A DNA stretch of 64,000 nt. Origin: Rhodospirillales bacterium (GTDB lineage: Bacteria; Pseudomonadota; Alphaproteobacteria; Acetobacterales; Acetobacteraceae). This document shows positions 4,454 to 25,379 of this stretch, in pieces. Each line of letters begins with the position of its first letter. Positions within the stretch are counted from its first letter, which is position 1. A model generated the notes under the pieces. That model saw nothing but the letters and a program-made list of their open reading frames with translations. It was not told the DNA's origin and ran no database searches. The DNA lies in assembly GCA_025359905.1 (NCBI GenBank), contig JANYDF010000114.1:110077-174076 (forward strand), in the 5' to 3' direction. The position numbers and the translations under genes were made by a program.

Positions 4454-5848
4454 ATGTCGCGTTGGAGGCAGCATCTCGACATGCACATGGTCAATCCACC
4501 GCCGCAGAGTTTGCTCAACACGGCGGATCGCCGGGCCGCCGGGCGCGCCATCCGCCAGCGTTTGCCGCGTGGCGCACATGCCATTTGGCAAGCCCTGGCC
4601 GGGCGTCCCGACCCGGTGGCGCTCCTGCAAGCCGCCGGCCAAGGCCGCATCGCCAGCCTGCTGCCTGGGCGATATGGGCGGATGGCCGCCGATATTTTCG
4701 GCTTCCTGCGCGGTGCCGCCCCGGTGATGGCCGCCGACCTCGGCGGGATGGCGCATAGCGGGCTGATCGTGCAGGCCTGCGGCGATTGCCACCTGATGAA
4801 CTTTGGCGCCTACGCCTCGCCGGAAGGTGCGGCGGTGTTCGACATCAACGACTTCGACGAAACCCAGCCCGCCCCGTTCGAATGGGACTTAAAGCGGCTG
4901 GTGAGCAGCGTGGCGGTGGCCAGCCTTGTGCGTGGCGGCACGGCCAAGTCGGCCCGCGCACTGGCCCGGCGCACCGCGCACGCCTACCGCCAGCACATGC
5001 ACGATCTGGCGCATATCGCCCCGCTGGACGCTTGGCGCTCGCGCATCGATCTGGCGGCGGCGGTCGAGGACATCGGCGCTGCCGATGTGCGCAAGCGGGA
5101 GCGGCAGCGGCTCACCGAGGCGGTCGAGGCCAGCCGCGACGCCTACCGCCATCTTGTCTGGCACGGCAAATTGCGGCTGCGCGAGGATAGGCCAGGCATG
5201 TTCCGCCTGCCGCCGCACGAACAAGTCGCGCACGCCGCCTTTGCCAACTACCGCGACAGCCTGCCGGAGGAGCGGCGCATTTTGCTGGAGCGCTACCGGT
5301 TGCACGACGTGGCATTCAAGGCGGTCGGCGTTGGCAGCCGTGGCACGTTCTGCGCCATCGGGCTGCTGGTCAGCGGCGACGGCGACCCGCTGCTGCTGCA
5401 GTTGAAGCAGGCGCAAGCCTCGGTGCTGGCGCCGTATTGCGCCGATAGCCGTTACGCCAATCACGGCGAACGCGTGGTGACCGGCCAGCGCGTGCTGCAA
5501 GCCGCCAGCGACATTTTCCTCGGCTGGGCGCAGGGCAACACGCCGGACATGCACTTTTACGTCCGCCTGCTGCGCGACCAGCGGCTTGCCGCCGTCGGCA
5601 GCGCCATCGCACGGGACGCGCTGCGCTTCTACGCCAAGCTGTGCGGCCGCACCCTGGCCCGCGCCCACGCCCGCAGCGGCGACGCCGCCGCAATCAGCGG
5701 CTATCTCGGCGAGAGCGTCGCAATGGACGATGCGCTGGCCGAATTCGCCATTGCCTATGCCGGACAAACCCGCGCCGACCACGCCGCCTTGGTGGACGCC
5801 ATCAATCAAGGCCACATCGCTGCTGAAGCCGTGCAGCCCGCGCCATGA
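4454..5848 (+). CDS. DUF2252 family protein, possible kinase-like fold
   Basis: A 464-residue DUF2252 protein of unknown function. The diagnostic stretches are GDCHLMNFGAY, FDINDFDET and PFEWDLKRLVSS, in that order between about residues 112 and 155, with LRDQRLAAV and a C-terminal AR(A/S)HARSGD-type segment. The GDxHxxNFG then DxNDFDE pattern recalls the catalytic HxxN and metal-binding acidic residues of aminoglycoside-phosphotransferase/kinase-like folds. That similarity is my inference, not an established activity for this protein. No signal peptide is visible, so it is probably cytoplasmic. It sits between pgpA and pncC with zero-base and 4-base (ATGA) junctions, so it is cotranslated with envelope and housekeeping genes. 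Confidence 0.85.
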   Translation: MSRWRQHLDMHMVNPPPQSLLNTADRRAAGRAIRQRLPRGAHAIWQALAGRPDPVALLQAAGQGRIASLLPGRYGRMAADIFGFLRGAAPVMAADLGGMAHSGLIVQACGDCHLMNFGAYASPEGAAVFDINDFDETQPAPFEWDLKRLVSSVAVASLVRGGTAKSARALARRTAHAYRQHMHDLAHIAPLDAWRSRIDLAAAVEDIGAADVRKRERQRLTEAVEASRDAYRHLVWHGKLRLREDRPGMFRLPPHEQVAHAAFANYRDSLPEERRILLERYRLHDVAFKAVGVGSRGTFCAIGLLVSGDGDPLLLQLKQAQASVLAPYCADSRYANHGERVVTGQRVLQAASDIFLGWAQGNTPDMHFYVRLLRDQRLAAVGSAIARDALRFYAKLCGRTLARAHARSGDAAAISGYLGESVAMDDALAEFAIAYAGQTRADHAALVDAINQGHIAAEAVQPAP

Positions 5849-6396
5849 TCGGCGAAGCCGAACTCACCCTCGCTGAGACCGTGCTGGCCCAGTGCCGCGC
5901 GGCCGGGTTGCGGGTGGTCACGGCGGAAAGCTGCACCGGTGGGCTGATCGCCGCCGCACTGACCGCCATCGCCAGCAGTTCGGACGTGGTGGATCGCGGC
6001 TTCGTCACCTATTCCAACGCCGCCAAGACCGCGATGCTCGGCGTGCCGGCCGACCTGATCGCCGAGGCCGGCGCGGTCAGCGAGCCGGTGGCGCGGCTGA
6101 TGGCCGAAGGCGCGCTAGCGGCCTCGGACGCCGATCTGGCCGTGGCGGTCACCGGTGTCGCCGGTCCGGGCGGCGGCACGGCGGCCAAGCCGGTTGGTCT
6201 GGTTTGGTTTGGCCTCGCCCGTCAAGGATTGGCCCGTCAAGGATTGGCCCGTAAAGGATTGGCCCACAAAGGATTGGCGCATAAGGGCTATGCCACACAG
6301 ACACTACACCTTGTGTTGCCCGGTGGCCGCGCCGAGGTTCGCAGGGCCACGGTCGCGCAGGCATTGACGATGCTGCTCGCCGCCGCAAGGTGCTGA
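5845..6396 (+). CDS. pncC: Nicotinamide-nucleotide amidase (CinA C-terminal family)
   Basis: PncC-type enzymes deamidate nicotinamide mononucleotide in the pyridine nucleotide cycle. The 183-residue protein is the stand-alone CinA C-terminal domain. VVTAESCTGG carries the predicted nucleophile Ser29, FVTYSNAAK carries Tyr56, and VTGVAGPGGGTAAKPVGLVW is the family glycine-rich motif. Between that strand and TQTLHLVLPGGR the protein has an unusual insert, residues 123-147, made of five near-identical pentapeptides (GLARQ/GLARK/GLAHK). The family normally has a short loop there. The motifs on both sides are intact, so activity is likely kept. The gene overlaps the DUF2252 stop by four bases and ends the operon. 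Confidence 0.88.
   Translation: MIGEAELTLAETVLAQCRAAGLRVVTAESCTGGLIAAALTAIASSSDVVDRGFVTYSNAAKTAMLGVPADLIAEAGAVSEPVARLMAEGALAASDADLAVAVTGVAGPGGGTAAKPVGLVWFGLARQGLARQGLARKGLAHKGLAHKGYATQTLHLVLPGGRAEVRRATVAQALTMLLAAARC
6211..6285 (+). repeat. Five tandem 15-bp units inside pncC
   Basis: Five in-frame copies of a 15-base unit of the form GG(A/C)TTGGCCCGTCAA occur back to back, starting at 6211, 6226, 6241, 6256 and 6271. Later copies diverge by one to four bases (CGT to CAC or CAT, CAA to AAA or AAG). Each unit encodes Gly-Leu-Ala-(Arg/His)-(Gln/Lys). The next 15 bases (GYATQ) look like a decayed sixth unit. The unit is a multiple of three, so expansion or contraction keeps the frame. Confidence 0.95.
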
Positions 6397-21777: not shown

Positions 21778-23118
21778 TCAGAATAGCTTCTTCACGGCGG
21801 TCACAACCCAGTCGGGCTGCGGCAGCGCCAGCTTTTCCAGATTGGCGGCATATGGCAGCGGGACGTCCAGCCCGGTGACGCGCACCGGTGGCGCATCCAG
21901 CCAGTCGAAGCACTGCTCAATGATCTGCATATTGACTTCGGCGCCGATGCCAGCAAACGGCCAGCCTTCTTCCACCGTGACAATGCGATTGGTCTTTTTC
22001 ACGCTGGTCACGATGGTTTCGGTATCCAGCGGGCGCAGCGTGCGAAGGTTGATCACTTCGGCGCTGATGCCCTGTCCGGCCAGCAAGCCGGCCGCCTTCA
22101 TCGCCACGCCGACCATGATGGAGAACGCCACGATGGTCACATCGGTGCCGGCACGCTCGACTTTCGCCTTGCCGATGGGCAGCACGAAATCATCGGCGGT
22201 CGGGCAGTCGAAGGTCTGCCCGTACATGATTTCGTTTTCGAGGAACACCACCGGGTTCGGGTCGCGGATCGCCGCGCGCAGCAGGCCCTTAGCGTCGGCG
22301 GCGGACCATGGGGCCACCACTTTCAGGCCGGGGACGTGCGCGTACCACGAGGCATAGCACTGGCTATGCTGCGCGCCGACGCGCGAGGCGGCCCCGTTCG
22401 GGCCGCGGAACACGATGGGGCAACCCATCTGGCCGCCGGACATATACAGCGTCTTGGCCGCCGAGTTGATGATGTGGTCAATCGCCTGCATCGAGAAGTT
22501 GAATGTCATGAACTCGACAATCGGCTTGAGGCCGTTCATCGCCGCACCCACCGCCATGCCGGTGAAGCCGTGTTCGGTGATCGGCGTATCGATCACCCGG
22601 CGGTCGCCGAATTCAGCTAGCAGGCCCTGGCTGATTTTGTAGGCGCCCTGATACTGCGCGACTTCCTCGCCAAGCAGGAACACGCGGTCGTCGGCGCGCA
22701 TCTCGGCAGCCATCGCATCGCGCAGCGCTTCGCGCACCGTGATCGGCGCGGTTGGCCCCCAATCCTTGTCCTCGCTGACCGGGGCGGCGACCGGGGCGAC
22801 GACTGGGGCGACGACTGGGGCGGCGGCAACGGGGGCTGGGTGCGCCACCGGCGCCGGGGCAGCGGCGACGGACTCCGCACCGCCGGCCAATTCGGCAATT
22901 GGCGTGTTCACCGCGACGCCCTCAGCACCTTCCGGCACCAGAATCTTGGCCAGGATGCCCTCGTCCACCGCCTCGACCTCCATGGTCGCCTTGTCGGTCT
23001 CGATCTCGGCGATCACTTCGCCCGCCTTGATGTCGTCGCCGACCTTCTTGAGCCAGCGCGACAGCTTGCCCTCGGTCATCGTGGGCGACAGCGCCGGCAT
23101 CAGGATTTGGGTGCCCAT
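21778..23118 (-). CDS. pdhB: Pyruvate dehydrogenase E1 beta with N-terminal lipoyl domain
   Basis: Beta subunit of the thiamine-diphosphate E1 component, 446 residues. An N-terminal lipoyl domain (about 1-77, Lys in [15 protein letters not shown]) and a Val/Ala/Pro linker built from 12-base DNA repeats ([13 protein letters not shown]) precede the E1 beta fold. The fold starts [15 protein letters not shown] and continues with [18 protein letters not shown] and [16 protein letters not shown] lipoyl domain on E1 beta is a known alphaproteobacterial variant. The gene starts three bases after pdhA stops and precedes pdhC by about 30 bases. Confidence 0.96.
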
Positions 23119-24388: not shown

Positions 24389-24715
24389 CTAGAACAGCTT
24401 GCGGCCCTTGTCGTACTGCACAATCACGTCATTGGGGTCGGATAGATCGAGTTGCGCGCGGGCCCGCTCGTCCAGCGCATCGATATCCAGCCGCGATAGC
24501 AGGCCCGTGACGCGGCGTTCCCACACCGCCGCCTCGGCCGATGCGTTTTCCTGCCCGGCTTGCGCCTGCTGCAATTCCAGGCGGCGCTGCGGCAGACCTT
24601 GCAAGCCACGGTCGCCCTGCGCGGCGTTGGAAATGAAGTAGCCGATCAGCGCCATGAACACCGCCAGCGGAATGGCCGCCCGCGCCTTGCGCCGAATTGT
24701 CCGCCCGAACGCCAT
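24389..24715 (-). CDS. ftsB: Cell-division septum protein FtsB/DivIC family
   Basis: Bitopic inner-membrane protein of the divisome that works with FtsL and FtsQ. It has 108 residues from the ATG at 24715. A basic N-terminus (GRTIRRKAR), one transmembrane helix (AAIPLAVFMALIGYFISN, about 12-30) and a coiled coil (RRLELQQAQAGQENASAEAA) are followed by DALDERARAQLDLSDPNDVIV, the conserved FtsB tail. The neighbourhood eno-ftsB-pdhA is conserved in alphaproteobacteria, which supports the call. The longer frame upstream overlaps the divergent glycine-rich gene's promoter and is not used. Confidence 0.88.
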   Translation of the reverse strand: MAFGRTIRRKARAAIPLAVFMALIGYFISNAAQGDRGLQGLPQRRLELQQAQAGQENASAEAAVWERRVTGLLSRLDIDALDERARAQLDLSDPNDVIVQYDKGRKLF

Positions 24716-24872
24716 CCAGCCCCCCGCAAATGCTGCCAGCCGCACCTGCGACTCGGCGACACCCAAGCACATTTTGCCGTGTCTTTGCACGGCCAAAGTC
24801 TGGCCAAGGTTCGGACAAGTTTGCCGCGTTAGATGCCAATGCGGCCCAGATGGCCGCTGCGGAGACATAGCC

Positions 24873-25379
24873 ATGACGACGCGCACGCTGATGCTGAGCC
24901 TACTCACCGCCGCAGCGTTGCTGGTCATCCCCAGCTTGGCGCACGCGGCCCACGATGGCGCCGACTGGCAACATCATGGCGGCGGCGGCGGCGGCCACCA
25001 GGGACATCAAGGCGGATGGGGCGGTGGTGGCGGGCACCAAGGCAGCGGCTATGCCGGTGGAGGTGGCGGCCATCACGGCGGCTGGGGCGGTGGCGGCGGT
25101 TGGGGCGGCCACGACGGCGGCGGCGGGCGGCGCTGGGATCGGCAGGAGTGGCGCGGCGGCGGCGGCGGGTGGCAAGGCGGCGGATGGCAAGGCGGCGGAT
25201 GGCAAGGCGGCGGGTGGCAAGGCGGCGGATGGCAAGGTGGTGGCGGGGAATGGGCTGAAGGTTACGGCTATGAGCCGTGGCGCCACCATCATCACCGTCG
25301 CCCCTATTGGGAGCAGCCGTATTGGCAGTATGCCCAGCCGCCGGTCTATGACGGCAGCTATTATTATCCGTATCCGTAA
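24873..25379 (+). CDS. Secreted Gly/His/Tyr-rich repeat protein
   Basis: A 168-residue exported low-complexity protein. The ATG at 24873 gives a signal peptide (residues 1-25, ending LAHA). The mature part is glycine-rich with GGGGGHQGHQGGWGG-type runs, then five tandem GGGWQ units (about residues 99-123). The tail is His/Arg/Tyr/Pro-rich (WRHHHHRRPYWEQPYW, then a Tyr-Pro end). No domain is recognised. Such sequences suit a disordered, metal- or surface-interacting envelope protein, by inference. It lies on the opposite strand between eno and ftsB, an insertion into a usually compact neighbourhood. Confidence 0.7.
   Translation: MTTRTLMLSLLTAAALLVIPSLAHAAHDGADWQHHGGGGGGHQGHQGGWGGGGGHQGSGYAGGGGGHHGGWGGGGGWGGHDGGGGRRWDRQEWRGGGGGWQGGGWQGGGWQGGGWQGGGWQGGGGEWAEGYGYEPWRHHHHRRPYWEQPYWQYAQPPVYDGSYYYPYP
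25168..25242 (+). repeat. Five tandem 15-bp units in the glycine-rich gene
   Basis: The unit GG(A/G)TGGCAAGGCGGC occurs five times, starting at 25168, 25183, 25198, 25213 and 25228. Only the third base varies in the first four units, and the last has two T changes. The low divergence suggests recent expansion. Each unit codes Gly-Trp-Gln-Gly-Gly in frame. Confidence 0.95.

Follow-up and report, generated by a model that had tools for sequence, protein, structure and literature searches.

The closest described relatives of the gene studied here are the PncC/CinA C-terminal NMN deamidases. According to the available parts of PMC5384747 and PMC3855486, R145 of Agrobacterium CinA binds the substrate phosphate, and S31 and K63 are catalytic. 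The available part of PMC8231969 assigns roles to the residues that correspond to S29, Y56, and K61 of the protein described below. PMC3855486, in the part available, also describes PncC domains split by spacing sequence; these were judged to be probable mobile-element insertions and are unlike the array reported in this study. No information on the hairpin of the enzyme was found in the available part of PMC4246079, and no report of a repeat in PncC or CinA was found among the best-ranked titles of the literature.

The window analyzed in this study is a stretch of 64,000 nucleotides from a Rhodospirillales bacterium. It contains a pncC gene whose coding sequence carries five tandem 15-bp units. 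The features on which the analysis is based are as follows.

5845 to 6396, plus strand: pncC, encoding a single-domain amidase of the CinA C-terminal family, 183 aa plus stop (PF02464, TIGR00199)
5929 to 5931, plus strand: codon of the catalytic Ser29 (invariant column; role taken from the available parts of PMC8231969 and PMC5384747)
6199 to 6225, plus strand: codons of strand 1 (LVWF) and unit 1 (GLARQ), where the sister species has its native tip GLARR (sister comparison; AlphaFold2 strand E119-127)
6211 to 6285, plus strand: array of five 15-bp units (unit positions, TRF)
6226 to 6285, plus strand: four units that the sister, with its single unit, does not have, 60 bp and 20 aa (comparison with the sister locus)
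6286 to 6315, plus strand: native hairpin resumes and runs into strand 2 (GYATQTLHLV, aligned to GHATSTLHAV of the sister; AlphaFold2 strand E149-157)
6328 to 6330, plus strand: codon of R162, which corresponds to the phosphate-binding R145 of Agrobacterium CinA (invariant column; phmmer alignment to 2a9s; available part of PMC5384747)

The PncC enzyme and its predicted fold

The window protein scored 162.2 bits against the PF02464 profile (cut-off 23.5) and 133.9 bits against TIGR00199 (cut-off 68.9). It missed the cut-off of 212 for the NCBIfam equivalog NF002975 (nicotinamide-nucleotide amidase), against which it scored 151.5 bits. The protein of the sister species, which is without the array, was also under this cut-off (171.6 bits), so that the low score cannot be attributed to the array alone. 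An alignment (A1) was built from the window gene and 60 of 80 loci, omitting truncated and near-duplicate matches as well as several Brucella/Ochrobactrum and two Phyllobacterium loci. In these 61 sequences, the columns of S29, Y56, K61, and R162 were invariant, and that of T103 was nearly so. The catalytic serine and lysine, the tyrosine of block P-III, and the phosphate-binding arginine expected of a PncC/CinA protein were all present, and the enzyme most likely still performs NMN deamidation. A second, distant PncC-like frame was observed in the same genome (L002, G000:C110:34433-34771), with 39% identity over residues 7-119.

The best solved relative of the window protein identified by phmmer was 2a9s. 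An AlphaFold2 model built from the 61-row alignment had a mean pLDDT of 88.6, and its predicted fold agreed with the alpha/beta fold of 2A9S (Foldseek against 2a9s_A, TMt 0.90 and rmsd 2.0). The strands flanking the loop, residues 119-127 and 149-157, were kept in the model, and pLDDT was below 50 at residues 130-135 and 137-145. Judging from this low confidence, the inserted residues are probably flexible or disordered. R162 comes after the second strand and is separated from the tip by roughly the length of a strand (9 residues) plus a short turn, and this placement in the single-chain model would keep the loop well away from the phosphate site of its own monomer. The sequence-only reading had described an otherwise ordinary enzyme with a loop between two strands, and this description was borne out by the alignment, the AlphaFold2 strands, and the loop measurement given below.

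The array and the single-unit tip of the sister species

The five units, with starts at 6211, 6226, 6241, 6256, and 6271, keep the reading frame of the PncC ORF (5845-6396). They encode, in order, GLARQ, GLARQ, GLARK, GLAHK, and GLAHK, and are followed by GYATQ. TRF reported the array at 6217-6278 with a period of 15, 4.1 copies, 93% matches, and a score of 96. A pattern consisting of one unit and most of the next had two matches in the window and none in 100 shuffles. The G+C content of the array was 58.7%, compared with 70.6% in the rest of pncC. The period is a multiple of three, there are several copies, and the frame is kept, as in other in-frame tandem repeats. The sequence, the ORF, and the TRF output all agreed with the sequence-only reading on coordinates, unit length, reading frame, and the numbering of Ser29.

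The ancestral form of the loop was sought in one same-genus genome (n = 1), here called the sister. Its orthologous pncC encodes 163 aa and has a single unit at the tip (WFGLARRGHATS). The tip reads WFGLARRGHATSTLH, in which the GLAR(R/Q) unit is present once. The two PncC proteins are 81% and 71% identical across two aligned segments. Gene order is common to both species: pncC is flanked upstream by the gene of a DUF2252 protein (69% identical over residues 25-446) and downstream by that of a response regulator (71% identical over residues 1-228). Outside the array, dS between the two pncC genes was 0.78 and dN was 0.16. As the sister has one unit, the window gene contains four extra copies, and the addition of about 20 residues suggested earlier amounts to exactly 20 (183 aa vs 163 aa). 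The old copy cannot be told among the five, and the boundary at 6226 to 6285 is therefore one of several equivalent choices. The comparison clearly points to one tip unit as the ancestral state, a direction of change based on one same-genus genome together with the family outgroups.

Since the seed unit is the beta-hairpin tip of the enzyme itself, local tandem amplification, rather than the arrival of foreign DNA, is indicated. The locus had been read as an inserted minisatellite; an in-frame coding array does lengthen the loop, but the sister sequence suggests that it was amplified from the native tip GLARR-G and not inserted. We consider it highly probable that the native tip was duplicated locally and in frame in the lineage of this species and that the change was tolerated, with the core and active site kept. 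In this process, the 15-bp stretch for the hairpin tip GLAR(R/Q) would have been tandemly duplicated in frame via replication slippage or unequal exchange, either in the lineage of the species after its split from the sister or earlier, with the array lost in the sister. The outcome would be a flexible, basic loop, longer by about 20 residues, on an enzyme whose alpha/beta core, Ser/Lys active-site pair, and phosphate-binding Arg remain in place. Such growth may have been tolerated because each 15-bp unit adds exactly five codons and the tip forms the turn that joins two strands.

Assembly errors are known to arise at tandem arrays (available part of PMC6868369), and the genome is a draft of 162 contigs. 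However, each unit differs from its neighbor, the frame is kept, and the gene and its neighbors align to the sister on both sides, so that an array created by misassembly is very unlikely. The copy number of the array could be off by one.

Distribution among relatives and the repeat background

The sister protein was used to search 397 genomes of the family. Matches at E <= 1e-15 were obtained in 353 of them, and the best 150 were examined. The match of the window gene itself breaks at the array. All 149 other listed matches, including the sister, span the hairpin with a net length difference of -1 to +3 residues (-1 in 24, 0 in 116, +1 in 8, and +3 in 1). Matches beyond the best 150 score lower, and a lengthened pncC would score lower too and could be among them; for this reason, 20 further, mostly weaker family genes were checked. 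Eighteen of these had ordinary hairpins, and two (L218 and L219) were unreadable by the pattern. The stretch between two hairpin motifs was 41 residues in the window gene and 11 to 24 residues in the others, as measured in 107 of 112 loci, some of them duplicates (L019, L074, L079, L087, and L120 were left out). The three loci at 11 residues (L092, L107, and L126) were judged to represent earlier motif matches within an ordinary hairpin. In the alignment, the 27 columns of window residues 123-149 contained 7 residues in 59 of the 60 other rows and 10 in the remaining one.

The search was extended with a 60-aa peptide to 299 genomes of the order. No second lengthened PncC hairpin was found in the nine loci read (L201-L209), eight of which were PncC genes with ordinary hairpins and one of which was not PncC. 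Peptide matches of 53-57 residues in this search were considered as inserts and rejected, as they reflected an alignment shift in the eight PncC loci read. A search of viral contigs gave 0 matches, and a search of plasmids matched 23 records, none over 80% of the query. An insert shared by all close relatives, which the sequence-only reading had named as the result that would speak against a variable repeat, was not observed: it was missing from the same-genus genome and from the 148 other family members listed. Because the hairpins that could be read in the relatives are ordinary, the lengthened loop appears, as far as examined, to be private to the species, and it may be described as a repeat expansion, confined to this species, of a loop that tolerates growth.

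We also considered whether pncC acquired the units from a 15-bp minisatellite family that is dispersed or mobile. The array DNA matched five other family genomes at E <= 0.001 outside pncC, and four of these five hold 15-bp TRF arrays of 2.3 to 4.3 copies, which resemble it in their core and likewise lie outside pncC. In contrast, the reversed query matched 2 of the 397 genomes, against five others for the array, and the exact two-unit core occurred in 9 of 397 genomes and its backward control in 5, with the own genome included in both counts. When up to two mismatches were allowed, the unit gave 25 hits in its own genome, 4 of which are the array itself, and the control also gave 25. The counts are thus near background, with the two genome comparisons leaning slightly towards enrichment on small numbers, and the sister carries the seed unit natively. 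A dispersed or mobile origin is weakly refuted by these results, and we regard it as most improbable, although numbers this small would leave room for a weakly dispersed family. Short 15-bp arrays with a ATTGGCCC-like core were seen at mid-locus in L179, L180, and L183, at or just before the starts of other genes, which were named by eye as FAD-type oxidoreductase, purM-like, and general-secretion-like.

The tandem-repeat background of the genome was sampled in 455.6 kb, comprising the window and 20 further stretches (L158-L177). TRF rows with a score of at least 50 numbered 61, of which 21 had period 15. At a score of at least 40, period 15 was the commonest (36 of 129 rows), and the period was divisible by three in 97 of the 125 rows of period 7 or more. 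Nine rows, two of them overlapping, had a period of 9-100 and at least 3.5 copies; all their periods were divisible by three, and the pncC array ranked third among them by score. Two sets of loci from relatives had 21 and 22 period-15 rows per Mb, compared with 46 here, and 80 and 136 TRF rows of all periods per Mb, compared with 134 here; the comparison is rough, since these sets are stretches around a conserved gene. Arrays of the 15-bp type are a common product in this genome and not exceptional.

Two other arrays were noted in the window. A stronger 15-bp coding array at 25161-25237 (5.1 copies, TRF score 140) encodes GGGWQ repeats in a glycine-rich ORF (24654-25379), which matched no Pfam family and in which an inner Met starts a stretch that resembles a signal peptide by eye. 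A 12-bp array of 3.8 copies, with the unit GACCGGGGCGAC, lies at 22777-22822.

Unit divergence and comparison with known systems

Adjacent units differed at 9/60 sites (15%), mostly synonymously, and the homologous codons of the two species differed at 117/486 (24%). Six synonymous changes over 15.2 sites gave a pS of 0.40, and three non-synonymous changes over 44.8 sites gave a pN of 0.07. A Fisher test on these changes gave P = 0.005, which is overstated because the test treats the units as independent, and a simulation of neutral change (kappa 2, no codon bias) gave P = 0.018 for so few non-synonymous changes. These results suggest that the array is aged and perhaps mildly constrained, rather than slipping often. 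The units appear to resemble neither fresh copies nor the products of random drift; nine changes among non-independent copies are thin evidence for this.

The divergence of the units bears on whether pncC is a living variable-number locus, in which copy number would vary by strain and tune the enzyme. The unit length, a multiple of three, would allow such variation, and units 2 and 3 are only one base apart. However, frequent slippage would be expected to keep adjacent units more alike than the 15% observed, against 24% between species, and the divergence argues against frequent recent slippage. A cytoplasmic recycling enzyme is also not known as a usual contingency locus. A living variable-number locus is therefore unlikely, and the unit divergence favors a stable species feature over variation between strains.

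The same changes raise the question of whether the extra residues, as a basic and flexible arm in contact with a partner, nucleic acid, or the other subunit of the dimer, were recruited to a function and are kept by selection. The array contains 3 Arg, 3 Lys, and 2 His, and GLA is common to all five units despite silent changes in its codons. The difference between pS and pN hints at a degree of constraint, and so at something beyond tolerance of the insert. Against this, the nine changes are few and come from non-independent units, a pressure on base composition at third positions could produce the same pattern as constraint, the stretch is of low confidence in the AlphaFold2 model, and the array was absent from every other gene examined. 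We consider a selected arm improbable. There is likewise only a small chance that a young, lineage-specific arm, flexible and basic, on a core enzyme of the NAD cycle is already under purifying selection unit by unit; if true, the array would be a slippage product caught during recruitment to a function, such as a partner, nucleic-acid, or inter-subunit contact.

Local duplication of the native tip remains the preferred explanation. The change is real but fairly ordinary, a familiar type of event in an enzyme already described, and it leaves the knowledge of PncC and NAD recycling unchanged. Its value lies in illustrating cleanly, through the ancestral state seen in the sister, how a conserved enzyme gains a probably flexible loop by duplicating its own turn, and in providing a natural test of the loop growth tolerated by the PncC fold.

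The sister PncC shares the native tip GLAR and the neighboring genes with the window PncC and differs in having one tip unit, 163 aa, and no array. With Agrobacterium tumefaciens CinA (PDB 2A9S), the window protein has in common the fold, the single-domain form, the Ser/Lys active site, the phosphate-binding Arg, and the hairpin preceding the last helix, whereas it has 20 extra residues at the hairpin tip between strands 119-127 and 149-157. Like other in-frame intragenic repeats (coding minisatellites) of bacteria, the array has a unit length that is a multiple of three, imperfect copies, and probable flexibility, but unlike coding minisatellites generally, it lies in a core metabolic enzyme, within a loop. 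It also differs from Periscope Proteins, whose repeats, as described in the available part of PMC8201768, are folded surface domains.
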